A DNA stretch of 64,000 nucleotides from Halopiger xanaduensis SH-6 (GTDB lineage: Archaea; Halobacteriota; Halobacteria; Halobacteriales; Natrialbaceae). The notes beneath the pieces were generated by a model. It had not been told where the DNA came from. It made no database searches and saw only the letters and a program-made list of their open reading frames with translations. The stretch lies in assembly GCF_000217715.1 (NCBI RefSeq), contig NC_015666.1:2368270-2432269 (forward strand). Reading direction: 5' to 3'. A program made the translations under genes and the position numbers. Shown here piece by piece: positions 5,506 through 29,841 of this stretch. Numbering within the stretch: position 1 is the stretch's first letter; the number at the start of each line of letters is the position of its first letter.

Positions 5506-6025
5506 GAGTGCCCTCGCGTTCCCGAATCCGAATCGAATACCGTTCGGGGATGTTCGGATACCTCACACCACCGAATGCCAGTCGCTGACCCTTTACTATC
5601 GCTCGGCTACCCTCCCGAAATCGTATTATACCGGTTAGCTCCCGTGACTGACGGCGTATCCGACGTTTCAGTGATCGTGAACGGAACAAACTCGCAAAAA
5701 CGGTCGATACGGGGGAGGGTTCGGGCGGTTATTGGGGAGAGCGTTCCGGCCGCTCGAACGCTGTAGTTCGTGGCTACGGCGTTGTCAGGGCGGAGATAAC
5801 AAAACCTCGTTACCCGGTGTATCAGCACGATTCCCTCGCGGGTATCGAGTAACCGATGACACAGCATCACCGACGACGACGAGTGCGAGTGCGCGTTCGG
5901 ACGTGTTCGAGAACAGGACCGTCCTCGCCCCCGACGAGTCGCGCGAGCGGGCCGTCCTCCGCCCGCTCGAACCGAGCGACGCGACCGGCGCGACCGACGG
6001 CGGACGTCCCAGGAGGTGTCGCGCG
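5506..6025. other. Divergent control region, 520 bases
   Basis: Separates the reverse-strand regulator from the diacetamido-sugar operon. Holds the ATAACAAA element at 5796-5803, then about 220 bases of possible leader. A frame upstream of 6026 is open but has poor composition and no ATG. The operon's ribosome binding site AGGAGGTG lies at 6011-6018. Confidence 0.55.
5796..5803 (+). promoter_or_regulatory. ATAACAAA element before diacetamido-sugar operon
   Basis: ATAACAAAAC in gene orientation, 230 bases before the ATG at 6026, the longest spacing of the ten. Implies a long 5' leader, which would explain why this operon, unlike most haloarchaeal genes, has a strong ribosome binding site at its first start codon. 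Confidence 0.6.
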
Positions 6026-6631
6026 ATGAGCGAGGCCGTCCGCGACGCGGACGCGGACAGCGTCGTCCGCGGCGAGGACTGCACGATCGACGACGATGCG
6101 ACGGTCGGCTACGGCGAGTTCGACGAGCCGACGCGGATCGGCGACGGCGCGACGATTCGGGCCGGCTCGATCGTCTACGGCGACGTGACGATCGGCGACG
6201 AGTTCGCGACCGGTCACGACGTCCTCGTGCGCGAAGGGACGGAGATCGGCGACGACGTGCTCGTCGGCACGAAGACGGTCATCGACGGGCGGACGACGAT
6301 CGGCTCGCACGTCAGTCTCCAGACGAACGTCTACGTCCCGACCCAGACGACGATCGGGAGCAACGTCTTCGTCGGGCCCGGCGCCGTGCTGACCAACGAC
6401 GAGTACCCCATTCGCACGGACGACGGTCTCGAGGGGCCGACGATCGAGGACGGCGCCTCGATCGGCGCGAACGCGACGCTGCTGCCGGGCGTGACGATCG
6501 GCGAGAACGCGTTCGTCGCGGCCGGCGCGGTCGTCACCGACGACGTCCCCGCGGACAGCCTCGCGGTGGGAACGCCGGCGACGATCCAAGAGCTTCCCGA
6601 GCCGCTCGAGGGGCCGAACGATCTAGCATGA
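6026..6631 (+). CDS. Left-handed beta-helix N-acetyltransferase (WbpD-like)
   Basis: 201 residues. Start chosen at the ATG preceded by AGGAGGTG at a spacing of eight bases. Nearly the whole protein is hexapeptide repeat: I-G-D-G-A-T, I-G-D-E-F, I-G-D-D-V, I-G-S-H-V, I-G-S-N-V-F, I-G-A-N-A-T and I-G-E-N-A-F, with the W-less trimeric fold of sugar N-acetyltransferases. The end A-V-G-T-P-A is typical of the family. Expected reaction: acetyl-CoA-dependent acetylation of the 3-amino group of a UDP-2-acetamido-3-amino-uronic acid. It is the first gene of the operon and overlaps the aminotransferase by ATGA. Confidence 0.88.
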   Translation: MSEAVRDADADSVVRGEDCTIDDDATVGYGEFDEPTRIGDGATIRAGSIVYGDVTIGDEFATGHDVLVREGTEIGDDVLVGTKTVIDGRTTIGSHVSLQTNVYVPTQTTIGSNVFVGPGAVLTNDEYPIRTDDGLEGPTIEDGASIGANATLLPGVTIGENAFVAAGAVVTDDVPADSLAVGTPATIQELPEPLEGPNDLA

Positions 6632-7854
6632 GTAACACGAATTTCGACGCCGAGACCGAAGCGGAACCGGAGCCGACGACCGGCGACGCCGAGCCGGCCG
6701 AGACGGCCGAAGTCGACGCCGAGGCGTCCGACGGCCTCCCGTCGGTCTCGATCGCGGACCCCGACGTCAGCGCGGACGCGATCGACCGCGTACGGGACGT
6801 CCTCGAGAGCGGCGCGCTGGCGGACGGCCCCGAAGTGAGGAACTTCGAGTCCGAGTTCGCCGCGTACTGCGGTGCGGATCACGCCGTCGCCACCTCGAAC
6901 GGGACGACGGCCCTCCACGCGGCGCTCGAGGCGCTGGGCGTCGAGGAGGGCGACGCGGTGCTCACCTCGCCGTTCTCGTTCGTCGCGAGCGCGAACGCGA
7001 TCCGGCTGGCCGGCGGGAAACCGGTCTTCGCGGACGTCGACCCCGAGACCTACACGCTCGATCCGGACGACGTTCGGCGCGTCCTTTCGGAGCGATCCGA
7101 CGTCGTCGGCCTGCTGCCGGTCCACCTCTACGGGCTCCCCGCCGACATGCCGGCGCTGTGCGAGATCGCCGACGAGCGCGACCTGTTCGTGCTCGAGGAC
7201 GCCTGTCAGGCCCACGGCGCGCGGATCACGGGCGACCGCGTCGGCACGTTCGGCGACGCGGCCTGCTTCTCGTTCTACCCGACGAAGAACATGACGACCG
7301 GCGAGGGCGGGATGATCACCACCGACCGCGACGACCTCGCCGAGCGCGCGCAGAGCTACATTAACCACGGCCGCGCCGAGACCGGCACCGGCGGCTACGA
7401 GCACGTCGACCTCGGCCACAACTACCGGATGACCGCCATCGCGGCCGCGATCGGTCGCACGCAACTCGAGCGCCTCCCCGGGTTCAACGAGGCGCGCCGG
7501 GAAACCGCCGCCTTCTACGACGAGCGACTGTCGGACCTCCCGCTCGAGACGCCGACGGAGCCGCGGGGCTACCGCCACGTCTACCACCAGTACACGGTCC
7601 GGACCGCGGACGAGGCCGAGCGCGACGCGCTCGCGGCGACGCTCGAGGAGCGAAACGTCGACGCGGCCGTCTACTACGACACGCCGATCCACCGCCAGCC
7701 GGCCTACGAGACGATCAGCACGGCCGCGGCGGAGTTCCCCGAGGCGGAGGCGGCGGCCGACGAAGTCCTCTCGCTGCCGGTGCATCCGAACCTGACCGAA
7801 GACGAACGGCGAAGCGTCGTCGAAGCAGTCCACGATCACTACCACTCCACATGA
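6628..7854 (+). CDS. DegT/DnrJ/EryC1-type sugar aminotransferase (WbpE-like)
   Basis: 408 residues, PLP fold type I. An acidic N-terminal extension of about 35 residues precedes the core. Visible motifs: S-N-G-T-T-A-L-H (90-97) for phosphate binding, L-E-D-A-C-Q-A-H-G (189-197) with the ring-nitrogen Asp191, and F-Y-P-T-K-N-M-T-T-G-E-G-G with Schiff-base Lys220. Expected to transfer an amino group from glutamate to C3 of the 3-keto-UDP-uronic acid made by the neighbouring oxidoreductase. Start and stop overlap both neighbours by ATGA, indicating tight translational coupling. Confidence 0.93.
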   Translation: MSNTNFDAETEAEPEPTTGDAEPAETAEVDAEASDGLPSVSIADPDVSADAIDRVRDVLESGALADGPEVRNFESEFAAYCGADHAVATSNGTTALHAALEALGVEEGDAVLTSPFSFVASANAIRLAGGKPVFADVDPETYTLDPDDVRRVLSERSDVVGLLPVHLYGLPADMPALCEIADERDLFVLEDACQAHGARITGDRVGTFGDAACFSFYPTKNMTTGEGGMITTDRDDLAERAQSYINHGRAETGTGGYEHVDLGHNYRMTAIAAAIGRTQLERLPGFNEARRETAAFYDERLSDLPLETPTEPRGYRHVYHQYTVRTADEAERDALAATLEERNVDAAVYYDTPIHRQPAYETISTAAAEFPEAEAAADEVLSLPVHPNLTEDERRSVVEAVHDHYHST

Positions 7855-8909
7855 GCACGGAACACACTGAGACGGTCCCCACGACACCCACGCGGGCCGG
7901 CGTCATCGGCGTCGGCGCGATGGGCGAGAACCACGCGCGAGTGTACAGCGAACTACCGAACGTCGACCTCGTCGGCGTCTCCGACCACGACACCGACGTC
8001 GCGACGGAAGTCGCCGACGAGTACGGCACCGAGGCGGTCGACCTCGAGGAACTGCTGGACCGCTGCGACGTCGTCACGGTCGCGGTCCCGACGCACGTCC
8101 ACTACGACCTGGTCACGACCTGCCTCGAGGAAGACGTCCACGTGCTGGTCGAGAAGCCGATCGCCGAGACGGTCGAGCAGGGCCGCCGGATGGCCGAGCT
8201 GGCCGACGAGCGCGACCTCGTCCTGCAGGTCGGCCACATCGAGCGGTTCAACCCGGCCGTCCGGACGGTCGGCGAGTTGATCGACGACCTGGACGTGATC
8301 AGCCTCGAGGCCGAGCGGCTCGGCCCGCCGATCGACCGGGACGCGCCCGGGAACGTCATCTTCGACCTGATGGTCCACGACGTCGACATCGTCGGCTCGA
8401 TGCTCGAGGACACGCCGGACGCGCTCACGGCGATGGGCACCGAGGACGGCCGGTACGCGACCGCGACGATGGAGTACGACGACGTGGTCGCGACGCTGAC
8501 GGCCAGCCGCGTCACCCAGAAGAAGGTCCGCAAGCTCTCGGTGACCGCCCGCGAGTGCTTCGTCGAGGTCGACTACTTGGAGCAGTCGGTGCTGATCCAC
8601 CGCGACTCCTATCCGGAGTACGTCAACGACGAGGGCCAGAAGCGCTACCGCCACGAGAGCGTGGTCGAACGACCGCGCATCGACAACGGCGAGCCGCTGC
8701 GCCACGAGCTCGAGTCGTTCGTCGAGAGCGTCCGCACCGGCACCGAGCCGGAGGTTACGGCTGAGGACGGCATCGAAGCGCTCGAGGCGGTCCAGACGAT
8801 CGACGGGATCGTCGCGGACGACGAGCAGCACGCGCACGGACAGGAGCTACGGCCGAACGAACGCGACCGGGGGGAGCAGGAGCACGACCAGGAGGTGGAA
8901 GCCGAATGA
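7851..8909 (+). CDS. Gfo/Idh/MocA oxidoreductase (WbpB-like)
   Basis: 352 residues. Rossmann motif G-V-I-G-V-G-A-M-G-E-N-H-A at 17-29, the E-K-P signature at 101-103, and conserved V-G-H-I-E-R-F-N-P at 127-135 and M-V-H-D-V-D at 174-179. All are features of UDP-GlcNAcA 3-dehydrogenases of the WbpB type. Residues after about 325 are a charged tail. Expected reaction: NAD-dependent oxidation of C3 of UDP-GlcNAcA to the 3-keto sugar. Its place between the aminotransferase and the 6-dehydrogenase supports this, but substrate specificity within Gfo/Idh enzymes is not readable from motifs alone. Confidence 0.9.
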   Translation: MSTEHTETVPTTPTRAGVIGVGAMGENHARVYSELPNVDLVGVSDHDTDVATEVADEYGTEAVDLEELLDRCDVVTVAVPTHVHYDLVTTCLEEDVHVLVEKPIAETVEQGRRMAELADERDLVLQVGHIERFNPAVRTVGELIDDLDVISLEAERLGPPIDRDAPGNVIFDLMVHDVDIVGSMLEDTPDALTAMGTEDGRYATATMEYDDVVATLTASRVTQKKVRKLSVTARECFVEVDYLEQSVLIHRDSYPEYVNDEGQKRYRHESVVERPRIDNGEPLRHELESFVESVRTGTEPEVTAEDGIEALEAVQTIDGIVADDEQHAHGQELRPNERDRGEQEHDQEVEAE

Positions 8910-10423
8910 CCGAGCGGTCGAGTCCGAGCGACGCCGTTTCCCTCTACGACGCGAGCGTCGACGAGGCCCGCCAGCGCGAGGCGCTGGCCGGCGGCGAGGT
9001 GCCGGTCGCCGTCTACGGCCTCGGCAAGATGGGGCTCCCGCTGGCGGCGGTCTACGCGGAGACGACCGGCAACGTGACCGGCGTCGACATCGATCCCGAC
9101 GTCGTCGAGACGATCAACAGTGGCGAGAGTCACGTCGTCGGCGAACCCGGCCTCGACGAACTGGTCGCCGAGCAGGTCGGCACGGACCGACTCGAGGCGA
9201 CGACCGACGGCGCCGCGGCGGCCGCGGACGCTCGCGTCCACGTCATCATCGTGCCGACGCTGCTGGACGAGAACGACGAGCCGAACCTCGCGACTGTCGA
9301 GTCCGTCGTCGACGATATCGCCGCCGGACTCGAGCCGGGCGACCTGGTGATCGCCGAGTCGACGCTGCCCCCCGGAACCTGCCGGGACGTCCTCGAGCCC
9401 CACCTACAACAAGAGAGCGGCCTCGAGGCCGACGAGTTCGGGCTCGCCTTCTGTCCCGAGCGGACCTCCAGCGGCCGCGCGCTGCAGGACATCCGCGGCG
9501 CGTACCCGAAAGTCGTCGGCGGCGTCGACGACGAGAGCACCCGCGCCGCGACGGTCGTCTACGACGAACTCTCGAGCAACGAGGTCCACCCCGTCTCGGA
9601 CGCGACGACCGCCGAAGCGGTGAAAGTGTTCGAGGGGCTCTACCGCGACGTCAACATCGGGCTGGCGAACGAACTGGGACGACTCGCCGACGAACTCGGC
9701 ATCTCCGTGCGCGAGGCGATCGACACGGCCAACGACCTGCCGATGTGCCAGCTGCACGACCCCGGTCCGGGCGTCGGCGGCCACTGCATCCCCTACTATC
9801 CGCACTTCCTGCTGGGCCGGACCGAGGAGCCGATGGACCTGACCCACACCGCGCGGCGGGTCAACGACGGGATGCCGCGCGTCGTCGTCGACCGCCTCGA
9901 GCGACAACTCGCCGCGAGCGGCGTCGACCTCGCGGACGCCTCGGTCGTCGTTCTGGGACTCACGTACCGCCCCGGCGTCGAGGAGACGCGCGCCTCGCCG
10001 GCGCTGGACATCGTCGACGAGCTGACCGAGCGCGGCGCGGACGTGGCCGGCGTCGATCCGCTGGTCGATCCCGCCGAGTACGGCGCGCGGCCGGTCGCAC
10101 TCGAGGATCTCGAGGACGAGTCCGACGCCCTCGACGCGGCCGTCGTCGTGACGCCCCACGAGGGGTTCGACCGGATTCCGTGGGCCGACCTCGAGCCGAT
10201 GGTCGTCGTCGACGGGCGCGACGCGGTGGATCTCGCCGGGACGGACCACCGGGAGTACACGCTCGCGGGGTCGAGGAGCGGGCAGCCGCCGGCTCCCGAG
10301 GGCGCCGCCGCCGACGCAACCGCGTCCGAGACTCTCGAGAGCGAGGCGGAAACCGAAGCGACCGGCGCGACGAGAACCGACGGCGGGGCCGGAACCGAAA
10401 CCGGAGCGCACGACGATGTATAA
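8906..10423 (+). CDS. Nucleotide-sugar 6-dehydrogenase (WbpA/WecC type)
   Basis: 505 residues. NAD-binding Y-G-L-G-K-M-G-L-P at 37-45; A-F-C-P-E-R-T at 181-187; catalytic Lys240 in A-V-K-V-F-E; Asn250; catalytic Cys294 in G-V-G-G-H-C-I-P. A C-terminal UDP-binding Rossmann domain follows, with L-G-L-T-Y-R-P near 350. The last 70 residues are a low-complexity acidic tail rich in E, T, A and G, longer than usual for the family (about 420-440). Two-step oxidation of UDP-GlcNAc (or UDP-ManNAc) at C6 to the uronic acid is expected. Context favours UDP-GlcNAc, feeding the WbpB/E/D steps encoded just upstream. Confidence 0.93.
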   Translation: MTERSSPSDAVSLYDASVDEARQREALAGGEVPVAVYGLGKMGLPLAAVYAETTGNVTGVDIDPDVVETINSGESHVVGEPGLDELVAEQVGTDRLEATTDGAAAAADARVHVIIVPTLLDENDEPNLATVESVVDDIAAGLEPGDLVIAESTLPPGTCRDVLEPHLQQESGLEADEFGLAFCPERTSSGRALQDIRGAYPKVVGGVDDESTRAATVVYDELSSNEVHPVSDATTAEAVKVFEGLYRDVNIGLANELGRLADELGISVREAIDTANDLPMCQLHDPGPGVGGHCIPYYPHFLLGRTEEPMDLTHTARRVNDGMPRVVVDRLERQLAASGVDLADASVVVLGLTYRPGVEETRASPALDIVDELTERGADVAGVDPLVDPAEYGARPVALEDLEDESDALDAAVVVTPHEGFDRIPWADLEPMVVVDGRDAVDLAGTDHREYTLAGSRSGQPPAPEGAAADATASETLESEAETEATGATRTDGGAGTETGAHDDV

Positions 10424-12002: not shown

Positions 12003-12932
12003 ATGCACGTCCTCACGCTGACGACGAACGCCGATGCGCCGTTTATGACAGAGCAGATGCGCGCGCTCGAGCGACGCGGCGTCTCGTTTTCCACGCTGCC
12101 GGTTTCGGGGGAGGGCGATTCCGGGAAGACCCGCAGTCCGACCGACTATCTCAAGTACTTTCCCGAGGTGATCGCGGAGGCGGGCAACGGATACGACCTG
12201 GTTCACGCCCACTACGGCCTGACGGCGCCGATGGCGCTCGCACAGGTGCGCAAGCCGGTTGTCCTCTCGCTGTGGGGCTCTGACCTCTACGGCCCGGTCG
12301 GCCCCGTGAGCCGCACCTGTGCACCGCTGTGCGACGAGGTGGTCGTGATGTCCGAGGAGATGCGCGAAACGCTGGATCACGACTGCCGGGTGATCCCCGA
12401 CGGGGTCGACCTCGAGAAGTTCCAGCCCGCGCCGCAGGACGAAGCGCGCGAAGCCGTCGGCTGGGACTCCGACGAGTACCACGTCCTCTTTCCCTACCTC
12501 CCCGAGCGCGAGGTGAAAAACTACCCGCGGGCGCGGCGGATCGTCAACGCTGTCAACGGGCTCGTCGACCGCCCGGTCCGGCTGCAGACCGTCTACGGCG
12601 TCGATCACGACACCGTGCCGGACTACATGAACGCCGCGGACGCCCTGCTGTTGACCTCCCACAGCGAGGGGTCGCCCAACTCGGTCAAGGAGGCGCTGGC
12701 CTGCAACCTTCCCGTCGTCTCGGTCGATGTCGGGGACGTCTCCGAGCGCCTCGAGGGGGTCGATCCCTCGCTCGTCTCCGAGGACGACGAGGAGTTGATC
12801 GAAGGGCTGCGGGAGGTTCTCGAGTCCGGCGAACGGTCGAACGGTCGCGAGGCGGCCCGCGAGGTCAGCGTGGAGCGGACGGCCGACCGGTTGCACTCGC
12901 TGTACGAGCGGGTTGCGTCGGGTGGTCGGTAA
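12003..12932 (+). CDS. Family 4 (group 1) glycosyltransferase
   Basis: 309 residues, somewhat short for GT4 (usually 350-400). N-terminal GT-B half starts MHVLTLTTNADAPF and includes V-H-A-H-Y-G-L. The C-terminal half has I-P-D-G-V-D (residues 133-138) and the retaining-GT motif S-E-G-S-P-N-S-V-K-E-A-L (E-x6-E type) near 221-232. No transmembrane segment, so it acts in the cytoplasm on a nucleotide sugar and a membrane-lipid-linked acceptor. Monocistronic with its own ATAACAAA element. Confidence 0.88.
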   Translation: MHVLTLTTNADAPFMTEQMRALERRGVSFSTLPVSGEGDSGKTRSPTDYLKYFPEVIAEAGNGYDLVHAHYGLTAPMALAQVRKPVVLSLWGSDLYGPVGPVSRTCAPLCDEVVVMSEEMRETLDHDCRVIPDGVDLEKFQPAPQDEAREAVGWDSDEYHVLFPYLPEREVKNYPRARRIVNAVNGLVDRPVRLQTVYGVDHDTVPDYMNAADALLLTSHSEGSPNSVKEALACNLPVVSVDVGDVSERLEGVDPSLVSEDDEELIEGLREVLESGERSNGREAAREVSVERTADRLHSLYERVASGGR

Positions 12933-17188: not shown

Positions 17189-18193
17189 TTACTGGAACTC
17201 CGTCCGGTACCAGGCGACCGTCTCCGGCAGGTGCGCCTCGAGCGGTTCGTACTCGTACCCCAGTTCGTCGGCGGCCTTCTCGGACGTGTAGAACAGCCGC
17301 TCGGTCGCGAGTTTGGCCATCCGGCGGTTGAACGGGAACACCTGTCGGCCGGTGGCGGCGCCGACGGCCTCGGCGACCGGACCGGCCGCGTGGATCGCCG
17401 TCGACGGGACGGGAATCCGGGCCGGCGTGCCGCCGAGGTGTTCGGAGATTCGCGAGACCGCCCGATCGTAGGTGAGGTTCTCGCCGCCGAGGATGTAGTG
17501 CTCGCCGTTGCCGCCCTTTTCGTAGGCCGCGAGGATGCCGTCCACGACGTCCGAGACGCCGACGATGCTCAGCCCGCCCGGTAGGTACGCCGGCATCGTC
17601 GGCTCGAGGCCCATCGAGAGCAACTGGGGGGTGAACGAGCCGTCTCTCGGGCCGAAGACCGAGGTGGGGTGGACGGTGACGGCGTCGCCGCCCTCGTCGT
17701 CCGCGTACCGATCGACGAGCTGTTCGGCCTCGGCCTTCGAGGACTGGTACGCGCCGATGGGCTCGGCGACGTCGCTCTCGTCGGCGAACGGGGACGCCTC
17801 GTTCGGGCGGCGCGTCCCCGCCGTGCTCGTGAAGACCAGCCGGCCGACGCCGTCCTCGCTGGCGCGACAGGCTTTGAGCACGTGGGCCGTCCCGTCGCGG
17901 TTGACTCGCTTGACGGTCTCCGGGGTCGCGCTCCAGAGCCCGACGCCCGCGAGGTGGAAGACGGCGTCCGTCCCGTCGACCAACTCGCGCAGCGTCTCGT
18001 CGTCGAAGACGTCGCCGACGTACCACTCGAGCGCGCCGTCCTCGCCTTCGTCCGCGCCCTCGAGCACCTCGCGATCCGACGACGGCCGACTGAGCGCGCG
18101 GACGTCCCAGCCGTCCGCGAGGAGCCGTTCGCAGAGGTGGGAGCCGAGGAAGCCGGTTGCACCCGTGACTGCTGCAGTCTTGTCTTCGGTCAT
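17189..18193 (-). CDS. NAD-dependent epimerase/dehydratase (extended SDR)
   Basis: 334 residues. Glycine-rich NAD motif T-G-A-T-G-F-L-G at 10-17, H-L-A-G at 80-83, and the active site Y149-x3-K153 in A-Y-Q-S-S-K. Extended SDR fold of nucleotide-sugar epimerases and dehydratases, or dihydroflavonol-reductase-like enzymes. The exact substrate cannot be read. It is third in a reverse-strand operon; the start lies two bases after the DUF362 stop. In a glycan locus it most likely modifies a nucleotide sugar. Confidence 0.88.
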   Translation of the reverse strand: MTEDKTAAVTGATGFLGSHLCERLLADGWDVRALSRPSSDREVLEGADEGEDGALEWYVGDVFDDETLRELVDGTDAVFHLAGVGLWSATPETVKRVNRDGTAHVLKACRASEDGVGRLVFTSTAGTRRPNEASPFADESDVAEPIGAYQSSKAEAEQLVDRYADDEGGDAVTVHPTSVFGPRDGSFTPQLLSMGLEPTMPAYLPGGLSIVGVSDVVDGILAAYEKGGNGEHYILGGENLTYDRAVSRISEHLGGTPARIPVPSTAIHAAGPVAEAVGAATGRQVFPFNRRMAKLATERLFYTSEKAADELGYEYEPLEAHLPETVAWYRTEFQ

Positions 18194-18195
18194 GG

Positions 18196-19152
18196 TTACT
18201 GCTCGAGTTGCGGCGGAACCGCGTCGCCGCCGACGGCCGCGTAGAGGCGGTACGCGGTCGTCACGGCGGGATGCGTTTCGTCCGACGGCGGCAGTTCGGC
18301 GCCGGCGAGTCGGTCACGGAGCGCGTCGAAATCGAGGTCGTCGGCGCCCGCGCCGACGCGCTCGACGGTGATCGGCCCGTCGTCCGTCCCGGCGGCGAGT
18401 CGGAGCACCGGGTCGTCATCGGTCGCGTCGCCGAACAGCGACGCGCCGAGGGCGTCGACGTCCGGCGCCGGTCCCGCGAACAGGGCGTCGGCCGCGTAGG
18501 GGTCGGTCCCGTACGCGGTCGTCGCGTCCATGACGGAGAGCGCGGGGTCGACGGCCTGCGTCGCCGCGACGGCAGTGATCTCCGGGTCAGCCGCGGAGTC
18601 GACGAGATCGGCGAGCCGCCGCACGCCGCCCGCGACCCGCCCGTCTTCGGTCGGCCGCAGCGTCGGGACGGTGACGACTGCTCCCCGTACGAGTCGCGTC
18701 GGGACGGATACTGACACCGACCGGCCGTCGACCTCGCGGACGACGTCGGTTCGCGGCTCGGCATCGTCGGCGAGATCGACGAGTTCGGCGTCGAACCGCT
18801 CGAGCAGGTCCCGATAGCCGAGGTACTGGCCGGTCCGCTCGAGGTCGATGATCTCGTTCGTGGTGCCCGCAACGGCGATGTCGGCATCGGTGCGGTCCTC
18901 GAGGGCGGCGACGAGTGCGCCGACGACGGCGGGGTCGGTCACCGTTCCGGTCGAGGGGTGGAAGGGGTAGTGCGCGTCGGGGACGAGGGTGATCTCCTCG
19001 GCCGTTTCGAGGTCAGTTTCGTCCGAGAGCGCCGACTCGAGCAGCGTCTGCACCGGCGTCTCGAGGGAGGCCATCCGGGCGTCGAGATCCGGAATCCAGC
19101 TGCCGCGCCGATCGCCGCGGTCGACGGCGGCCGCGCGAACGGGTCCGGTCAC
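18196..19152 (-). CDS. DUF362-like protein
   Basis: 318 residues, GTG start at 19152 overlapping the preceding gene's stop by GTGA. The central part has T-L-V-P-D-A-H-Y-P-F-H-P-S-T-G-T-V-T-D-P, an A-G-T-T-N-E stretch and V-P-T-L-R-P, matching the DUF362 fold described in haloarchaeal glycan gene sets. No iron-sulfur ferredoxin tail is present, unlike many bacterial DUF362 proteins. Biochemical role is unknown. Co-transcription with a Gfo/Idh oxidoreductase and an SDR suggests a shared sugar-modifying pathway. Confidence 0.7.
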   Translation of the reverse strand: MTGPVRAAAVDRGDRRGSWIPDLDARMASLETPVQTLLESALSDETDLETAEEITLVPDAHYPFHPSTGTVTDPAVVGALVAALEDRTDADIAVAGTTNEIIDLERTGQYLGYRDLLERFDAELVDLADDAEPRTDVVREVDGRSVSVSVPTRLVRGAVVTVPTLRPTEDGRVAGGVRRLADLVDSAADPEITAVAATQAVDPALSVMDATTAYGTDPYAADALFAGPAPDVDALGASLFGDATDDDPVLRLAAGTDDGPITVERVGAGADDLDFDALRDRLAGAELPPSDETHPAVTTAYRLYAAVGGDAVPPQLEQ

Positions 19153-20249
19153 GTCATCACCTCCGGCGCGAGTTCCTCGCGATCGGTCCGGTCGGCCAGT
19201 TCGTAGGCCGTCTCCGCCAGTTCGAGCGTCCGGCGGCCGACCTCGCCGTCGACCGGCGGCGCCTCGCCCTCGCGGATCGCCTCGAGGAAATCGTCGAGCG
19301 CCCGATAGTGGGCCTGCAGGTAGAACGTCGGGCCGAAAACGTCGCGATCGAGGTCGGTCACGCGGCTCGCGACGTTCGACAGCGCGGACTTGGCCGCGTC
19401 CGCGTAGAAGTTGTTCGGCAGGTGGTCCCGGTTGCTGATCGTTCCGGTGATGCCCTCGAGGCGGAGCCGGGTGTTCACTTCGGGGAGTTGCTCCCACTGG
19501 TAGGAGCCGCAGTGGAGCGTGATCGTCGTCTCCGTCTCGGGCGCCCGCATCATGACCGTCGCCGCGTCCTCGACCGGCACGTCAAGCGTTTCGCCCGTAG
19601 CTGCGCTTTCGATCTCGAGGTCGCCGAACAGCCACTCGAGGACGTCGAAGCAGTGAATGCCGAGCTCAAGCAGGGAGCCGCCGCCGGCCGCGTCGGGATC
19701 GAGCGGCCAGGACGCGGGCGGGTCCCGAACGGGCGGTCGACCGAGCGGCCCGTCGTTGAGCCGCGTCATCGACGCGTAGGGGACGTGGCCGACGCTGCCG
19801 TCCTCGTAGGCCTCCTTGACGCCGACGATGTCGGGCTGGTAGCGCAGCGTGTGGTCGACGCCGACGGCGATGTCGCCCTCCTCGGCGGCCTCGAGCATCC
19901 GGTCGGCTTCCGCGGTCGAGCGAGCGAACGGTTTTTCGACGAACACGTCGACGCCGGCCTCGGCGGCCCGCTCGACGGCGTCGGCGTGGAGGAACGGGGG
20001 TAAGGCGACGACCGCCGCGTCGAGGTCTTCGGCCTCGAGCAGGGCGGCGTAGTCGTCGTACGTGCGGTCCGCGCCGGCGCGTTCGGCTCGCTCGCGGTTC
20101 TCGGGAACCGCGTCGGCGGCTGCAACCACGTCGACGTCTGCCATTGCGCTCGCCGACTTCAGGTGTACCATGCCGATGTTTCCGACGCCGAGAACGCCCA
20201 CGGAGAGGGAACTCGAGTCGGTCAATCGGCGCAGAACTGCGGATGACAT
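19149..20249 (-). CDS. Gfo/Idh/MocA oxidoreductase (second copy)
   Basis: 366 residues. Rossmann G-V-L-G-V-G-N-I-G near 18-26, E-K-P-F-A at the usual position, and active-site region G-G-G-S-L-L-E-L-G-I-H-C-F-D-V-L with the catalytic-type His. Distinct from the WbpB-like copy at 7851-8909: different active-site loop and a longer middle insertion containing S-R-V-T-D-L-D-R. First gene of the three-gene reverse operon. Uses NAD(P) to oxidise or reduce a sugar derivative; the substrate is unknown. Confidence 0.9.
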   Translation of the reverse strand: MSSAVLRRLTDSSSLSVGVLGVGNIGMVHLKSASAMADVDVVAAADAVPENRERAERAGADRTYDDYAALLEAEDLDAAVVALPPFLHADAVERAAEAGVDVFVEKPFARSTAEADRMLEAAEEGDIAVGVDHTLRYQPDIVGVKEAYEDGSVGHVPYASMTRLNDGPLGRPPVRDPPASWPLDPDAAGGGSLLELGIHCFDVLEWLFGDLEIESAATGETLDVPVEDAATVMMRAPETETTITLHCGSYQWEQLPEVNTRLRLEGITGTISNRDHLPNNFYADAAKSALSNVASRVTDLDRDVFGPTFYLQAHYRALDDFLEAIREGEAPPVDGEVGRRTLELAETAYELADRTDREELAPEVMT

Positions 20250-20408: not shown

Positions 20409-21359
20409 CTAGTCGTCGCCGATCGTGCGGCCGTCGATCGGCGTGACTTGTCCGTCGACGCTCCGAGCGACGTCGACCTTCTGCGCGATGTCGCCGATCG
20501 TTTCGACCGCGAGATCCGTGTTCGAGCGTTTCCGGTCGAGGTACGCGAGGATCGCCCGCATCCGGTGATCGTCCCGCTCGTGCGTGAGGTTATTCGGATG
20601 GAGCCACATGTGGAAGATCCCGTCCGACTCGACGGCTTCGTCGATCCCGCGCCGGGCCTGGACGACCATCGGGTCCTCCCAGATCGACTCCGCGACGGTT
20701 CGGGCCGGCCCTTCGAACCCGAACAGGAACAGCGAGGCCGGCACGTTCACCAGCCCGTACTCGTCGACGACCGGTTGGACCAGCAGCGAGTGGTCGCGAA
20801 ACGTCGAATCGAAGAGGCCGCGAACGCCGTCCCGCGTCGGCGAGCGGCCCCGATACGCCCGGACGCCGTGGTCGGCGAGGACGTCTCGGTGCCCGACGTC
20901 GTTGCGCGGATAGACGAACGTCTCGATCGACTGGTCCCACTCCGACGCGATCTCGGTGCTGCGCCGAAGCTCGGCCTCGGCGAGTTCGCGGTCCGTCTCC
21001 GGCCGTCCGAAGAGGACGTGGGAGAACGAGTGGCTGGCGAACTCGTGGTCGACTTCGGACGAGAGCAGCGCGTCGACCAGATCGGGTGCGAACCGGAGGT
21101 CGGCCCGGTCCGCCCACTCGGTTCGTTCCCGCTCGAACCAGCCCTCCGGCGCGGGATGTTCGGCGTGTCTCCCGTCGCAGGACTCGAGCATCAGGTGGCC
21201 GACGACGGCCCAGGTCGCGGGGATTTCGAACTCCGAGAACAGATCGAGCATGACCGACCAGCCGCGGCGACCGGACTCTACTCGATCCGTCGGCAGGGAC
21301 TCGACGTCGTGAAATCCCCAGCCGAGTTCGGCGTCGAGCGAGACGACGACACTACCCAT
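20409..21359 (-). CDS. Polysaccharide deacetylase family protein
   Basis: 316 residues from the ATG at 21359 (an in-frame GTG at 21371 is the alternative). NodB-homology features: S-L-D-A-E-L-G-W-G at the N-terminus with the catalytic-type Asp, P-A-T-W-A-V-V-G-H, E-F-A-S-H-S-F-S-H with the H-x3-H metal site, and a late H-M-W-L-H-P. Polysaccharide deacetylases of this kind remove N-acetyl groups from amino sugars in glycans. No signal peptide, so it may act on lipid-linked or nucleotide precursors in the cytoplasm. Monocistronic with its own ATAACAAA element. Confidence 0.85.
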   Translation of the reverse strand: MGSVVVSLDAELGWGFHDVESLPTDRVESGRRGWSVMLDLFSEFEIPATWAVVGHLMLESCDGRHAEHPAPEGWFERERTEWADRADLRFAPDLVDALLSSEVDHEFASHSFSHVLFGRPETDRELAEAELRRSTEIASEWDQSIETFVYPRNDVGHRDVLADHGVRAYRGRSPTRDGVRGLFDSTFRDHSLLVQPVVDEYGLVNVPASLFLFGFEGPARTVAESIWEDPMVVQARRGIDEAVESDGIFHMWLHPNNLTHERDDHRMRAILAYLDRKRSNTDLAVETIGDIAQKVDVARSVDGQVTPIDGRTIGDD

Positions 21360-21410
21360 AGCTCCCACCACGCGTGATCGTCATACTCGTGATGGATTCG
21401 ATCGGACGGT

Positions 21411-21753: not shown

Positions 21754-23349
21754 ATGAGCGGATCTACCCCCACGTCCGAGCGGGCGTTCGTCCTCGGACT
21801 CGACGGCGTACCGTGGCGACTCATCGAGCAGTGGAGCGACGAGGGTGAACTCCCGAACTTCGCCCGGATGCGCGAAGAAGGCGCCTCGGGCACGCTCGAG
21901 AGTACGCGTCCGCCGACGACGCCGCTCGCTTGGCCGTCGATCGCGACCGGCGTCTGGCCGGACAAACACGGGATCTACGGCTTCCAGAACCTCTCGGAGG
22001 AGTACTCCCACGAGATGTACACGAGCCACGACATCCAGCAGCCGCCCCTGTGGGAGCAACTCCAGCCGGCTCACGTCGGGAACGTTCCGATGACGTTCCC
22101 GGCCCGCGATATCGACGGCTCGATGGTGACGGGGATGATGACTCCCTCCACCGATCAGGAGTTCACGCATCCGCCCGACCTCGGCGACGAGCTCGAGTCG
22201 CGCGTCGGCGAGTACGAGATCAGCCTCGACTATCCGGAGTACGCCGACCGCCCCGACGAGTTCGAGGAGGCCGTCTCGAACATGCTCGAGCAGCGCCGGG
22301 AGGTGATGCAGCTGCAGATGGACCGCGCGGGCGACGACTGGCAGCTGTTCTTCTTCGTGTACACCGCGCCGGACCGGTTCCAGCACCTCGTCTGGGACAT
22401 GGACCGGCTGCTCGCCCACTACAAGAAACTCGACGACCTGCTCGGCGACGTCATGGACTACACCGACGAGCACGACGCCGACCTCTACGTCGTCTCCGAC
22501 CACGGCTTCGGCGAGATTCACGACCTGATCTACGTCAACCACATTCTCGAGCGGGAGGGCTACCTCTTCAGACGCGAGGACGAGGGCACCCGCGGCGCGC
22601 TCGCGAGCCTCGGCATCTCGCGGGACAGCATCACGAACATGCTCGAGCGGGTCGGCATCTCGGAGGAGATGCTGGTCTCGAACCTCCCGCGGAGTCTGCT
22701 CGACACCGTCGCCGAGCAGATCCCGGGCGATCACGCCCTCTACGACGTCGACTACGAGCGCACCGTCGCGTTCGTCCACGACGCGGGCAACTGTTACATC
22801 AACGACAGCAGGCGGTTCGAGAACGGGATCGTCTCGCCGAGCGACGTCCCGGAGATCAAAGAAGAGCTCATCGACGTCTTCGAGTCGGTGACCGACGCGA
22901 ACGACCGGCAACTCCTCGAGGTCTACGACGGGGACGAACTGTTCCCCACCGATCCCGACTCGCCGGATCTGATCGTCAACGGGATCGACGGGTACGACGT
23001 CCGCAACGGGATCGAGGACGAGGTGCTCGGCGACACCGGGAACTACGCGGCGAGCCACCGCAGCACGGGGATCATGCTCTGTCGCGGCCCGTCGATCGAC
23101 TCGGGGGCGACGCTGCGGGGCGCGCGCGTGGTCGACGTCGCGCCGACGCTGCTGCACGGCATCGGCGAGCCAGTGCCGGCAAACGCTGACGGTCGCGTGC
23201 TCTTCGACGCGTTCGACGAGTCGGCGACGCCGGCAACCACGAAGGTCCAGCGGTCCGAGGTGTCGAAGGTGGCGACGCCGGACGGCGAGGTCGACGAGGA
23301 CTTCGACGACGTCGAGGACCGCCTGAAGGGCCTCGGCTACATGGAGTAA
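21754..23349 (+). CDS. Alkaline-phosphatase-fold phosphodiesterase/nucleotide pyrophosphatase-like enzyme
   Basis: 531 residues. Motifs of the type I phosphodiesterase family: metal Asp17 in L-G-L-D-G-V-P-W, nucleophile Thr55 or Thr56 in P-P-T-T-P-L-A-W-P-S, K-H-G-I-Y-G-F at 71-77, metal site T-A-P-D-R-F-Q-H at 204-211, and V-S-D-H-G-F-G at 247-253. It ends with L-K-G-L-G-Y-M-E, the same closing signature as its paralogue at 43669-45300. No signal peptide, so it is probably cytoplasmic. Hydrolysis or transfer of a phosphate ester or diester in glycan or lipid-linked precursor metabolism is likely; the true substrate is unknown. Confidence 0.88.
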   Translation: MSGSTPTSERAFVLGLDGVPWRLIEQWSDEGELPNFARMREEGASGTLESTRPPTTPLAWPSIATGVWPDKHGIYGFQNLSEEYSHEMYTSHDIQQPPLWEQLQPAHVGNVPMTFPARDIDGSMVTGMMTPSTDQEFTHPPDLGDELESRVGEYEISLDYPEYADRPDEFEEAVSNMLEQRREVMQLQMDRAGDDWQLFFFVYTAPDRFQHLVWDMDRLLAHYKKLDDLLGDVMDYTDEHDADLYVVSDHGFGEIHDLIYVNHILEREGYLFRREDEGTRGALASLGISRDSITNMLERVGISEEMLVSNLPRSLLDTVAEQIPGDHALYDVDYERTVAFVHDAGNCYINDSRRFENGIVSPSDVPEIKEELIDVFESVTDANDRQLLEVYDGDELFPTDPDSPDLIVNGIDGYDVRNGIEDEVLGDTGNYAASHRSTGIMLCRGPSIDSGATLRGARVVDVAPTLLHGIGEPVPANADGRVLFDAFDESATPATTKVQRSEVSKVATPDGEVDEDFDDVEDRLKGLGYME

Positions 23350-23462: not shown

Positions 23463-24812
23463 CTATCGCGACCGGCCGCGGATGCGATCCAGTCCGTTTT
23501 TCGCCGTCGTCAACATCGGATACGCGGCGTTGTACACCGGGGCCGGTGCGTTTCTCGCGCCCGCGCGGAACAGCCGGTGGGACAGCGGCGGTTCCGCCTC
23601 GTCGACGAGGGCCTCGAGATCGGCCTCGAGCAGCCACTCGAAGAACGCCGCTTCCTCCGGCGACCCGGGCTCTGTCTCCTGGGCGCGATCGCGGATGTCG
23701 GCCCACATGTAGCGCTCGTCCTGTCCCAAGACCCACTCGCCGCCCTCGAGCGCGCGGCGAATGTCGGCGTAATCGTTGTGGGAGAACGGATAGCCGTGGG
23801 CCGTCGGTTCGAGGCCCGACAGCCGGAGGCCGACGGCGGTCCGGTAGCACTTCTCGCACTCGCCGCAGTTGCCGTCCATGCGCACGTTGCAGGTCTGGAG
23901 CTCGAGGTCCGGTGCATCTGATTCAACGTAATCGGCGATGACGTCCAGCCGCTCCTGCCGGGTGAGCTCGTAGCCGTCGTGGTGACACTCGGTGCCCGTC
24001 CAGCGGACGTACTCGTCGATATCGGGGCGCGAGCCCCACTCGAGGTCGATTCCGTCCCAGTGGGTCGCTGCGACGTACAGGTCGCCGATGCCGCGGGCGT
24101 ACGCCATCGGCGCACAGAGGCCGAGCAGGCCGAGTCCGTGGCCGACGGAGCTGTACCAGGCGCCGTCGACGAACCGCTTGTAGTGAGCGAGCAACATTGC
24201 GTGGTCGAGCGCCTCGAGCGCGTTCGTCTCGATAAAGGCGGTCTCGAGGTCGCATTCGTCGGCGAACGACAACACGCGCTCGCGGAGGTGGCGCCAGTCC
24301 TCGGCGCCGGACTCGTCGGGGGCGACGGTCCAGCCGCGGATGCTCACGAGCGTCGGCGATTCGTCGCGGTGGCGGATGTAGGAGCACGTGGAGTCGACGC
24401 CGCCGGTGAAGAGGAGGGCGCTGTCGCTGCCGTCTTCGTCGTCGTCACCGCCCGCGTCTCCACCACCGGCACCCGCCGGCGCGGCGTCGATCGTCCGCTT
24501 CGCGTACAGCGTTCCACCCTCGAGGAAGTCGTACATCCCGAGCAGGCTGGCCTTGACGTCCTCGAGCGCCCGCGCGAAGGTCGCGTCGACCTCGTCGACG
24601 TAGATGTCCGCGCCGTCGGCCCACGCGACCGGACAGACGTTCGCGAGGACGGGTATCGCGAGCACGCCGTCGGGAACGTCCTCGACGGAGCAATCGTAGC
24701 TGGTTCGAAACGGGTTGCCCGTGAAGAACCGCTCGAGGTCGGCCGAGGGACGTACCTCGCACTCGAGGCTCGAGCCGTCGGTCTCGGGATTTCCGATGGT
24801 GACTGATGACAT
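23463..24812 (-). CDS. QueC-like PP-loop ATPase
   Basis: 449 residues, ATG at 24812. A domain of about 130 residues and a Gly/Asp linker precede the PP-loop L-F-T-G-G-V-D-S-T-C-S at 134-144, which binds ATP and adenylates a substrate. A Cys cluster C308-x7-C316-x2-C319-x2-C322 (in D-G-N-C-G-E-C-E-K-C-Y-R-T) closely resembles the zinc site of QueC/ExsB. It is not a tRNA-modification QueC by length or N-terminus. In Pseudomonas O-antigen loci a PP-loop enzyme (WbpG) amidates diacetamido-uronic sugars; a similar role here is an inference from context. It lacks the ATAACAAA element found in front of most neighbours. Confidence 0.82.
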   Translation of the reverse strand: MSSVTIGNPETDGSSLECEVRPSADLERFFTGNPFRTSYDCSVEDVPDGVLAIPVLANVCPVAWADGADIYVDEVDATFARALEDVKASLLGMYDFLEGGTLYAKRTIDAAPAGAGGGDAGGDDDEDGSDSALLFTGGVDSTCSYIRHRDESPTLVSIRGWTVAPDESGAEDWRHLRERVLSFADECDLETAFIETNALEALDHAMLLAHYKRFVDGAWYSSVGHGLGLLGLCAPMAYARGIGDLYVAATHWDGIDLEWGSRPDIDEYVRWTGTECHHDGYELTRQERLDVIADYVESDAPDLELQTCNVRMDGNCGECEKCYRTAVGLRLSGLEPTAHGYPFSHNDYADIRRALEGGEWVLGQDERYMWADIRDRAQETEPGSPEEAAFFEWLLEADLEALVDEAEPPLSHRLFRAGARNAPAPVYNAAYPMLTTAKNGLDRIRGRSR

Positions 24813-25239: not shown

Positions 25240-27036
25240 ATGAATCGGACGACACTCGATTCGGTGTTCGCCGTCGGCTTCGTCGCCGTCGCAGTCGGTA
25301 TCCTCGTGGCGCGAGCGAACCCCGCGACCGCGTACGAGGCGTCGGTGTACACGGCGACGCCGACGGCGACGTGGGCCGGGCTGGCGATCGGCCTGGCGAT
25401 CGCTGTCCTCGGAGCGATCGGCTGTCGCGGCCGCGAGCAGGCGATCGCCATTGGACTCGGCAGTTTGGCGGTGACGGCAATCGTGAGCCTCCCCGTGATT
25501 CGGAACTACCGGTTCGCCGGGATGGGCGACGCGCTGACGCACCTCGGGTGGACGCGCGACATCGTCACCGGAAATATGGCGCCTCACGAGTTGATCTATC
25601 CCGGCGTTCACTCGTTGGCGGCGGTCGTCCACTACATCGGAGGCGTCTCGATCGAGCGTGCGCTGCTGTTTACCATCGTCTTCCTGTTCGTCCCCTTCCT
25701 AATCTTCGCCCCGCTGGCTGCTCGAGAGATCGACAATACCGGACTGGCAGCCGGCTGCGCAGCGGTCGTCGCGTGGATGGTCCTGCCGATCAACAACGTC
25801 GCGACGCACATGGGCGTCCACACCAACTCGAACGCGCTGTTTCTCGTGCCCGTCGTGGTCTTCGCGTTCGTCACGTTCCTTCGACGCCGGTCGACGATCG
25901 AACGGCTGCCGTTCGGCCTCTCGCCGTTCAGCGTTCTCGTCTACCTGACTGCCATCGGCTTACTGCTGGTCCACCTCCAGCAGATGGTCAATATCGTCGT
26001 CCTCGTCGGTGCGATCGCCGGCGTCCAGTTTCTCGCCCGGCGCCGGTACGACGACCACCCGATTCTCGAGCATCCGACGACGTACGTCCAGACGGTCGTG
26101 CTCGGCGCGATGTTCACCATCTGGGCGCTCGCCAACGAGCGGTTCCGGAACGCCGCGACGACCCTCGTCGAGGGCGTCCTCTCTGCGGACATCGGCGCCG
26201 GACAGGAGGTCGACCAGCGCGGGACCTCGCTGACCGAAATCGGCGGCAGCATCGCCGAACTGTTCGTGAAGATGTTCCTCGACGCGGCGGTGATCGGCCT
26301 CGTCGCGGGGCTGTTCGTGCTGGTGACCTGGATCGGCTGGACCCGGACCGACCGGGAGGCGTCGACGTTCGTCACGTACTTCGGGCTCGCACTGGTTCCG
26401 CTGGGAATCATGTTCGCCCTCTACTTCGTCGGGACGCCGACGATGGCGTTTCGGCAGGTCGGGTTCATCTACGTCGTCCTGACGATCCTCGGTGGGGTCG
26501 CGCTCGCACACGCGATTACCGGCCTCTCGCGGTACATCACGAGGCCGGGTGCGAACGCGGTGGCGTCGATCGGCCTCGGAGTGCTCCTCGTGCTCGGCCT
26601 GCTGACCGTCTACGCCTCGCCGCTGATCTATAGCCCGACACAGCACGTCACCGACGAGCAGTTCAGCGGCTACGAGTCGAGCTTCGAGCACACGGCCGGC
26701 GATCAACCCTACGTCGGACTGGGCTACGACCCCTACCGGTACGACCACGGTATCAACGGCCTCGAGGGCCAGGAGGAAGCTCCCCTGAGCGGCGCGGCGT
26801 TCTCGAGCGGCACCGTCGACGCCGAACGGTTCGAGGCGGGCAACTACAGCGGGGCCTACCGCGGCGTCGACTACTACCTCACGATCTCGGCGTTCGACGA
26901 AACGCGGGAAACGGAGGTTTATCGGGGGCTCGATATCAGCGAGGAGGCGGTTGCGGGCGTCGAGACCGACCCAGCCGCCAATAAAGTGATCTCCAACGAG
27001 GAGTACGAGATGTACGCCGTTGCTAGCGAGTCGTAA
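25240..27036 (+). CDS. Polytopic membrane protein, GT-C glycosyltransferase-like
   Basis: 598 residues with about eleven or twelve transmembrane helices up to residue 470, then about 130 residues outside the membrane. The first large loop contains R-F-A-G-M-G-D-A-L-T-H-L-G-W (residues 87-100), placed like the catalytic Asp loop of GT-C enzymes. The soluble C-terminal domain is acidic with Y-E-S-S-F-E-H-T and Y-S-G-A-Y-R-G-V. Probably a polyprenyl-phosphate-sugar-dependent glycosyltransferase, or a polymerase/ligase acting on the outer face. No WWDYG-type oligosaccharyltransferase motif was seen, so it is not a standard AglB. Monocistronic. Confidence 0.72.
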   Translation: MNRTTLDSVFAVGFVAVAVGILVARANPATAYEASVYTATPTATWAGLAIGLAIAVLGAIGCRGREQAIAIGLGSLAVTAIVSLPVIRNYRFAGMGDALTHLGWTRDIVTGNMAPHELIYPGVHSLAAVVHYIGGVSIERALLFTIVFLFVPFLIFAPLAAREIDNTGLAAGCAAVVAWMVLPINNVATHMGVHTNSNALFLVPVVVFAFVTFLRRRSTIERLPFGLSPFSVLVYLTAIGLLLVHLQQMVNIVVLVGAIAGVQFLARRRYDDHPILEHPTTYVQTVVLGAMFTIWALANERFRNAATTLVEGVLSADIGAGQEVDQRGTSLTEIGGSIAELFVKMFLDAAVIGLVAGLFVLVTWIGWTRTDREASTFVTYFGLALVPLGIMFALYFVGTPTMAFRQVGFIYVVLTILGGVALAHAITGLSRYITRPGANAVASIGLGVLLVLGLLTVYASPLIYSPTQHVTDEQFSGYESSFEHTAGDQPYVGLGYDPYRYDHGINGLEGQEEAPLSGAAFSSGTVDAERFEAGNYSGAYRGVDYYLTISAFDETRETEVYRGLDISEEAVAGVETDPAANKVISNEEYEMYAVASES

Positions 27037-27071: not shown

Positions 27072-27100
27072 ACCGCATTTTCCCGTCGGTGTTGACGATC

Positions 27101-28327
27101 ATGAGCGCTCTCGACGACGTCCGCGTGCTCGACCTGACGCGCGTGCTCGGCGGACCGTACTGCACGATGTTGCTCGCCGACCTGGGCGCAGACGTCGTGA
27201 AAATCGAACCGCCGGGCGGGGATTTCGTCCGCGAAACGCCGCCGTTTCACGACGAGGACGATAGCTTCGGCGGCTACTTCCAGAGCATCAACCGCGGGAA
27301 GCGGAGCCTCGAGCTCGATTTCACCGACGAGGACGACCGCGACGATTTCCTGTCGCTCGTCGACGCGGCGGACGTCGTCGTCGAGAACTATCGCGCCGGG
27401 ACGATGGCGAAGTTCGACCTCGAGTACGAGCGCCTCGCCGAGCGCAACCCGCAACTCGTCTACGCGGCGCTGCGCGGGTTCGGCGATCCCCGCACCGTCG
27501 AGAGCCCCAAACAGGACGAGCCGGCGTTCGACCTCGTGGCGCAGGCGATGGGCGGCGTGATGCACCAGACCGGCCACCCGGACGGCCCGCCGACGAAGGT
27601 CGGGTTCGGCGTCGGCGACATCTTCACGGGCGTGTTGCACGCGGTCAACATTCTCGCGGCGCTGCACTACCGGGAGCGGACGGGCGTCGGACAGTTCGTC
27701 GACACGGCGATGTACGACTCCATGGTGAGCCTCGGCGAGCGGGCGGTCTACCAGTACTCCTACACCGGCGAGGTGCCCGAGCGGCGGGGCAACTCTCATC
27801 CGACGCTGTTCCCGTACAACGCCTTCGAGGCCGAGGACGGTTTCGTCGTCATCGCCGCGCTCACCGATCGCCACTGGCGGAACCTCTGTGAACACATGGG
27901 CGAACCCGAGTGGGCTGTCGACTACGCCGACGCCGCGGATCGGCTCGAGCACCGCGAGAAACTGCGCGAGGCGATCGCGGAATGGGTCGGCTCCCGATCG
28001 GCCGCGGCGGTCCTCGAGACGCTCAACGGGTCCGTCCCCTGCGGGCCGTTGCAGGACGTCGCCGACATCTACGACTGCGAGCACGCGAAGCAGCGGGAGA
28101 TGCTCGTCGAGGCCGACCTTCCCGAGGCCGACGAGACGGTGACGATCGCCGGCACGCCGATCAAGATGGCCAAGACGCCGCCCGAGCCGGGCGACCGCGC
28201 GCCGCTGCTGGACGAGCACCGGGACGAACTCCTCGGGGTCGACGTCGCGCGGCCGCCCGAGCCCGACGTCGGCGACGGGGAGACGGAGCCGTTCGAGGTT
28301 TCGCAAGACCAGTCACAGGACGATTGA
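27101..28327 (+). CDS. Family III (CaiB/BaiF) CoA transferase
   Basis: 408 residues from the ATG at 27101 (an ATG at 27089 adds four). Starts V-R-V-L-D-L-T-R-V-L-G-G-P-Y, and contains I-N-R-G-K-R-S-L and V-G-Q-F-V-D-T-A-M-Y-D-S, which holds the catalytic Asp of the family. It transfers CoA between carboxylic acids. The partner acids are unknown. Being in one operon with a GNAT acyltransferase under a glycan-locus promoter element suggests it activates an acyl group used to decorate a glycan, which is an inference. An independent metabolic role is the alternative. Confidence 0.9.
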   Translation: MSALDDVRVLDLTRVLGGPYCTMLLADLGADVVKIEPPGGDFVRETPPFHDEDDSFGGYFQSINRGKRSLELDFTDEDDRDDFLSLVDAADVVVENYRAGTMAKFDLEYERLAERNPQLVYAALRGFGDPRTVESPKQDEPAFDLVAQAMGGVMHQTGHPDGPPTKVGFGVGDIFTGVLHAVNILAALHYRERTGVGQFVDTAMYDSMVSLGERAVYQYSYTGEVPERRGNSHPTLFPYNAFEAEDGFVVIAALTDRHWRNLCEHMGEPEWAVDYADAADRLEHREKLREAIAEWVGSRSAAAVLETLNGSVPCGPLQDVADIYDCEHAKQREMLVEADLPEADETVTIAGTPIKMAKTPPEPGDRAPLLDEHRDELLGVDVARPPEPDVGDGETEPFEVSQDQSQDD

Positions 28328-29554: not shown

Positions 29555-29680
29555 CCGGTGGTAATTGACTGCTATTCTCTAATTTAGTTGTTGAACTGAT
29601 AGAAACAGTCGTCGATCGACCCGTTTCGACCCGTTCGGCCCACCGTCGGAAATAGGCCCCATAGAACGGTTCTTGAGGGA

Positions 29681-29698
29681 GGTAATAGCGTATTTACC
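29681..29698. promoter_or_regulatory. Palindromic operator GGTAATA-GCG-TATTTACC
   Basis: GGTAATAGCGTATTTACC, an almost perfect inverted repeat, 187 bases before the ATG at 29868. A 17-base version with perfect arms stands at 31205-31221 before the paralogous gene. Confidence 0.65.
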
Positions 29699-29835
29699 CG
29701 GAAAATACGGTGTTACGACGGCTGTCCCGACCGGTATTCGTTCATATATTCGTGAACGAAACGCAGTAGATTGTACCGGAATCTATAGTGTTACAAATAT
29801 ATTCTGTAAATTTAATCCATATCGCCAAGGAAAAG

Positions 29836-29841
29836 TTTATG
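29836..29841 (+). promoter_or_regulatory. TATA box of first beta-helix gene
   Basis: GGAAAAGTTTATG, with purine-rich BRE directly before TTTATG, 32 bases before the ATG. Matches the element at 31393-31398 in sequence and position, consistent with near-leaderless transcripts. Confidence 0.65.

Follow-up and report, generated by a model that had tools for sequence, protein, structure and literature searches.

QueC uses ATP to turn a carboxylate into an amide and then into a nitrile, in an ammonia-dependent reaction; the available text of PMC13329287 gives YxQxHxxE, VPxRN, and YPDC as its motifs and reports the mutants Y35A, R99A, and Y131A as inactive. Cap9, which belongs to type IV CBASS, shares this activation and joins CDG to a protein N terminus (available parts of PMC13329287 and PMC13279940); it is about 185 residues long and has kept the QueC motifs (PMC13329287, same parts). 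QatC, of the qatABCD anti-phage system (PDB 9y01 and 9y02), has lost the CDG-recognising Tyr/Asp (PMC13279940, same parts) and is described in the available text of PMC13329287 with the zinc variant C(x)19CGxCxxRR. That text gives no Pfam model for qatB, and the paper, a 2026 survey of the QueC superfamily, was itself built on PF06508. Here, we compare these systems with P0001, a PP-loop protein encoded in a haloarchaeal window (the whole stretch of DNA that was analysed, 64,000 nucleotides).

Sequence and predicted structure of P0001

The open reading frame of P0001 was confirmed on the minus strand and is open up to a stop. Its ATG at 24812 is the same start as in the haloarchaeal orthologues of the fetched loci. 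The gene and its motifs are as follows.

23463..24812, minus strand: P0001, the subject gene, a PP-loop protein of 449 aa
24483..24812, minus strand: N-terminal domain, residues ~1-110, a confident RNase H-like alpha/beta fold by AlphaFold, with weak matches to solved folds
24390..24407, minus strand: PP-loop ATP-binding motif TGGVDS, residues 136-141 (TGGVDST, 136-142)
24135..24158, minus strand: family signature W219-x5-H225-G226, opposite the QueC VPxRN region by hhalign
24024..24038, minus strand: WGSRP, residues 259-263, in the region of QueC YPDCRP, exact register unsure
23958..23960, minus strand: R285, invariant in 25/25 aligned relatives
23847..23891, minus strand: QueC-type cysteine cluster C308-x7-C316-x2-C319-x2-C322, a putative zinc site

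The PP-loop GGVDST and the C-x7-C-x2-C-x2-C cluster pointed out in the initial annotation are thus both present. The QueC-type PP-loop SGGxDS occurs in P0001 as TGGVDS, with serine changed to threonine, and many relatives have the serine. The QueC zinc motif C(x)7-8CxxCxxC is also found, as a sequence motif with predicted zinc, and its four cysteines are kept in 25/25 relatives. These 25 archaeal and bacterial proteins show no variation at A63, G138, D140, R285, or any of the four cysteines, and the WGSRP motif has the form WGS[HR]P in most of them. In 14 haloarchaeal orthologues, the PP-loop, the cysteine cluster, and more than 100 other positions are all invariant, indicating that the motifs are not due to chance.

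P0001 matched nothing in Pfam at E 1, no NCBIfam model, and no PADLOC model, and a sequence search of the PDB gave no meaningful match. Its relatives are labelled hypothetical protein in 26/26 plasmid records, and we found no paper in the PMC literature that describes the family.

We then compared the AlphaFold model of P0001 (pLDDT 80, pTM 0.80) with known folds. QatC came first (Z 12.8, rmsd 4.5, 303 residues aligned), followed by QueC (Z 12.1, rmsd 3.4, 183 residues) and Cap9 (Z 10.2, rmsd 3.3, 168 residues), while other PP-loop enzymes began near Z 8.9. Foldseek gave 6.4e-6 for QatC and 9.6e-4 for QueC. In hhalign, the family aligned with the genome's own QueC at Prob 97 and with five haloarchaeal QatC at Prob 96, both being single-pair comparisons run without an unrelated control. 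Among the model searches, PF06508 (QueC) was weakly matched by 10/25 family members (best E 1.1e-3), and the three relatives among the matches listed with scores did not reach its cut-off. The PADLOC QatC model gave nothing for P0001 at E 1 and matched 2/25 relatives (best 8.4e-4).

P0001 shares with QueC the PP-loop core, the C-x7-8-C-x2-C-x2-C site, and the lack of a glutaminase subunit. However, it is twice as long and has no PF06508 match at E 1, none of the motifs YxQxHxxE, VPxRN, and YPDC was found in it, and a true QueC is encoded separately in the same genome (C3:2007389, 253.5 bits). With G138 and D140 of the PP-loop and all four cysteines retained, the three QueC motifs gone, and a separate QueC in the genome, P0001 represents a diverged lineage within the QueC superfamily and not QueC itself. 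An exact register of WGSRP on YPDCRP (R-P on R-P, by eye) was dropped, as hhalign aligned the region differently; the argument is independent of this register.

Cap9 has the QueC core fold in common with P0001 but is a protein of about 185 residues with the QueC motifs, against 449 residues without them, and no CD-NTase family was named among the ten neighbours of P0001 scanned. QatC, the best fold match, resembles P0001 more closely: both appear to have a QueC core with N- and C-terminal additions, are about 430 to 450 residues long, carry the PP-loop and four cysteines, and lack the CDG-recognising Tyr/Asp motif of QueC. Unlike QatC, P0001 has its own signature (W-x5-HG and WGS[HR]P), a glycan context, and no match to the PADLOC QatC model, and its zinc-type stretch reads C-x7-CGEC-x2-C-YR instead of C(x)19CGxCxxRR.

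The AlphaFold prediction for residues 1 to 132 has a core pLDDT of about 95. Its best VIA match was the HIV RT connection domain (Z 5.7, rmsd 3.5, 84 residues). RNase H-like hits of this strength, none above Z 5.7, may simply reflect a common arrangement and are too weak to assign the predicted domain. The idea that it is the QatC domain was not confirmed either: the whole model matches QatC at Z 12.8 over 303 residues, whereas the N-terminal domain alone gave RNase H-like folds at Z 5.7 or less and no QatC among the matches listed. The domain had been called unique in the initial annotation. No Pfam model indeed matches these roughly 110 residues, but "unique" is too strong, since they are conserved across archaeal relatives. 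The description of P0001 as a QueC-like PP-loop protein was upheld by the fold matches to QatC and QueC. Overall, the structural model, profiles, and motifs place P0001 in a previously undescribed branch of this superfamily that carries an extra N-terminal domain of predicted RNase H-like fold.

Distribution and gene context

By profile search, the P0001 gene is present in 76/292 genomes of the class, namely in 67/74 genomes of its own family, Natrialbaceae, compared to 9/218 other haloarchaeal genomes; it is therefore nearly universal in one archaeal family. A search of the phylum, made with another profile and threshold, found it in 23 of the 392 genomes sampled, two of them from outside the order. 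Bacterial relatives lie on plasmids of Priestia, Pseudobutyrivibrio, Azospirillum, Gloeothece, Gemmobacter, Nostoc, and Paracoccus. In a tree of 29 rows, the archaeal rows group with Bacillota rows, and the Natrialbaceae-type rows form one supported clade together with the copy at L025.

Relatives were also found in four viral contigs. In three IMG/VR contigs, members of the bacterial branch stand beside phage-like ORFs (L108:1591-2706, L109:1059-2234, and L111:5611-6834). A search of the phage records turned up none of the bacterial-type relatives.

To describe the context within the family, we fetched 26 haloarchaeal loci with flanks of up to 10 kb, some shorter, and counted homologues at any identity shown. 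Neighbour functions here and below were assigned by family only. The neighbours in the window are listed below.

12003..12932, plus strand: GT4-type glycosyltransferase
17189..18193, minus strand: NAD-dependent epimerase/dehydratase (PF01370)
18196..19200, minus strand: DUF362 protein (PF04015)
19149..20249, minus strand: Gfo/Idh/MocA oxidoreductase (PF01408), conserved neighbour in 16/26 loci, starting the Gfo/Idh-DUF362-epimerase cassette
20409..21371, minus strand: polysaccharide deacetylase-like protein (PF01522, just under cut-off), conserved neighbour in 20/26 loci
21754..23349, plus strand: type I phosphodiesterase/alkaline-phosphatase-superfamily protein (PF01663), conserved neighbour in 20/26 loci
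25240..27036, plus strand: divergent multi-spanning membrane protein (weak PF20176, DUF6541), conserved neighbour in 23/26 loci

The whole Gfo/Idh-DUF362-epimerase cassette was found in 16/26 loci, and in Halorientalis the same cassette also adjoins a P0001-type gene, with an ATP-grasp gene next door. This conserved set of glycan genes bears out the earlier placement of P0001 in a glycan region. Three further genes were noted near P0001. A CoA-transferase family III gene (PF02515, window 27089-28327) lies among the conserved glycan genes and occurs also at L007 and L079, with none seen in the other fetched loci. Two proteins without a Pfam match (window 29673-30815 and 31426-33258) are conserved near the P0001 gene, and the corresponding part of Halomontanus has an annotated beta-helix protein.

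For the archaeal copies outside the main type, we compared 16 non-main copies from ten genomes, a set that leaves out G164 (L072) and both G059 copies, with the sites of PF00534 (GT4). Six of the 16 lie within 10 kb of such a site, compared to 0.73 expected, and 7/16 lie within 15 kb, compared to 1.0 expected (nominal P 5e-6). The remaining 9/16 are more than 15 kb from any GT4 gene. For distant loci, we assessed glycan context by looking at gene clusters and at those neighbours that had been scanned. A UDP-sugar dehydrogenase gene is found near the copies at L024, L025, L069, L070, L080, and L082, in the window, and on two Priestia plasmids, and an ATP-grasp gene adjoins the copy or stands one gene off at L068/L095, L069, L070, and L088 and is near the copy at L077. 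Other copies are away from glycan genes. Several in Haloarculaceae and elsewhere stand by housekeeping genes (TiaS/DRG, ProRS, dapD, or polymerase Y), for example by TiaS and a DRG GTPase at L063, by BrkB and ProRS at L029, and by dapD at L065. In one haloarchaeal genus (L065 and L066, about 7000-15300), the dapD-adjoining copy is part of a cluster with lookalikes, by eye, of dapA, dapB, lysA, and dapF.

In bacteria, a polysaccharide pyruvyl-transferase gene lies at most five genes away in 11 of the 14 places read and in 5/7 genera, as a raw count. The 3/14 places without it are one Nostoc copy within a complete exopolysaccharide locus that also contains an alkaline-phosphatase-family gene, another Nostoc copy among insertion sequences, and the Paracoccus copy, which has no glycan neighbours. 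Adding the Nostoc exopolysaccharide locus to the 11, 12/14 bacterial places are in or by polysaccharide genes; context counts such as this one are not phylogenetically independent, as they include a tandem pair in G161, four Azospirillum, and one genus for both G041 and G114. Pyruvyl transferase was also considered as a partner in archaea and rejected: PF04230 occurs in 5/17 genomes, never beside a P0001-type gene.

Proposed function and its alternatives

The best explanation of these observations, to which we would give a probability of about 0.42, is that P0001 carries out ATP-driven carboxylate activation and amide formation on a surface glycan or its precursor. By analogy with the chemistry of QueC and Cap9, P0001 would bind ATP at the PP-loop and adenylate a carboxylate, ammonia or an amine would then displace AMP to give the amide, and the Zn(Cys)4 site would be a structural element. 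As the family retains its ATP site and its cysteines and has an altered substrate region, the most economical interpretation is that of an enzyme that adenylates a new substrate and forms an amide from it. Gene context suggests that the substrate would most likely be a surface-glycan building block or polymer with a carboxylate, for example a uronic acid produced by the UDP-sugar dehydrogenases encoded close to several copies; the glycan context, these dehydrogenases, and the ATP-grasp genes all point to a carboxylated sugar. The nitrogen donor would presumably be free ammonia or an amine, as in QueC and Cap9, so that no glutaminase partner would be needed. We counted against a glycan role the 9/16 non-main archaeal copies without GT4 within 15 kb, the absence of the pyruvyl-transferase link in archaea, and the 3/14 bacterial places without it.

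Tentatively, and with less confidence than in the amide-forming reading itself, we suggest that the QueC scaffold, already known to serve nucleobases and protein N termini, may have a third role, in which a surface-glycan carboxylate would be turned into an amide, conjugated to an amine, or even taken on to a nitrile by a family common to archaea and bacteria that lies outside the PF06508-based map. This branch is probably missing from the QueC map because the survey was built on PF06508 and those family members that we scored lie below its cut-off or are unmatched. If P0001 acts on glycans, QueC chemistry would reach a third substrate class, and the family would offer a way into the nitrogen-bearing sugars found in surface polymers of archaea and bacteria.

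Because some copies are outside glycan loci, a metabolic or RNA-related role deserves serious weight, although we consider it unlikely. P0001 would then be an ATP-dependent ligase or a sulfur/nitrogen transferase that is not glycan specific, and its glycan neighbours in Natrialbaceae would be incidental. This would agree with the copies by TiaS/DRG, ProRS, dapD, and polymerase Y and with the nine non-main copies far from GT4 genes, but it is at odds with the enrichment of GT4 genes near archaeal copies and with the polysaccharide genes at 12/14 bacterial places.

It seems improbable that P0001 acts like QatC or Cap9, joining a small acid to the glycine at the N terminus of a partner protein encoded among the glycan genes. 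Among the fold matches, QatC ranks first and is alone in aligning over more than 300 residues, and it likewise lacks the CDG-recognising Tyr/Asp (PMC13279940, available parts). The QatC partner qatB has an N-terminal MGTS tail. A candidate partner was at hand in the neighbouring deacetylase (20409-21371), which starts M/V-G-S in 25/25 fetched orthologues. However, an M/V-G-[ST] start is equally found in the deacetylases of four genomes of the same family without the PP-loop gene (G263, G265, G239, and G215). This start is therefore a feature of the deacetylase family and not a modification tag, and the deacetylase was rejected as an N-terminal-glycine target of P0001. The deacetylase also has no tail before its first predicted strand motif. 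Furthermore, no KAP ATPase (qatA) or TatD nuclease (qatD), the operon partners of QatC, was seen among the ten neighbours scanned, and P0001 is unmatched by the PADLOC QatC model.

Returning to amide formation on a glycan, the initial annotation had linked P0001 to diacetamido sugars and to the amidino chemistry of WbpG. The window does encode the set on which that link was based.

5732..10423, plus strand: WbpD/E/B/A-like set (hexapeptide transferase, DegT aminotransferase, Gfo/Idh dehydrogenase, UDP-sugar dehydrogenase)

While this set is real and lies 13 to 18 kb from the P0001 gene, the linkage is loose. WbpD-like proteins occur in 191/292 genomes, compared to 76/292 for P0001. In the 67 same-family genomes, the best listed WbpD match lies within 25 kb of the P0001 gene in 36, at 25 to 60 kb in 7, at 60 to 150 kb in 7, beyond 150 kb in 6, and on another contig in 8; G005 and G087 have no match, and the place in G270 is not listed. 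WbpG/WbuX (NASAT) proteins have a HisH/HisF-like ammonia source alongside. The earlier remark that no such donor is present here holds as far as tested: the GATase domain PF00117 has 8 sites in the genome but none inside the window (nearest listed, C3:2211582), and the amidotransferase domain of GlmS is the only one among the window proteins scanned.

Like P0001, WbpG/WbuX are PP-loop proteins with zinc-type cysteines in sugar loci, but their cysteine motif is different. The NASAT tetracysteine motif is CXXCXn[GN]XCXXC in the available text of PMC10607449, and its first CXXC pair is missing in P0001. In addition, TIGR03573 (WbuX/WbpG) matched neither P0001 nor any other protein of this genome, which thus has no WbpG/WbuX gene. 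The model and the cysteine motif argue against P0001 being WbpG, and WbpG-like amidino chemistry found no support. Even with the PP-loop, the zinc-type cysteines, and a WbpD/E/B/A-like set in the same region, an N-acetyl-sugar amidotransferase that places an acetamidino group on a diacetamido sugar is therefore very improbable, given also the loose linkage and a window without GATase.

Finally, P0001 might be an additional QueC that uses 7-carboxy-7-deazaguanine as its substrate on the way to archaeosine or a similar base. The QueC core fold and zinc pattern would fit, but we rejected such a tRNA-modifying role as very unlikely, given the true QueC in the genome and the absence from P0001 of three QueC motifs, at which Y35A, R99A, and Y131A inactivate QueC (PMC13329287, available text); clustering of P0001 with tRNA-modification enzymes was not found.

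DUF6395 and haloarchaeal QatC-like proteins

DUF6395 (PF19932) is a separate Pfam family with a weak profile link to that of P0001, being weakly matched by 9/25 members (best E 0.023). One Priestia plasmid that carries two tandem P0001-family members also encodes a DUF6395 protein (L083:18558-19874), in which we found SGGVDS and a cluster of cysteines. From its motifs, DUF6395 looks like another uncharacterised PP-loop family, and no paper on it was found in the PMC literature.

QatC-like proteins were present in 8/194 haloarchaeal genomes at E <= 1.4e-21 (L096-L103). The five that we read carry T-x-T-x-HP and CGECxxC, and archaeal Qat-like systems may be worth examining.
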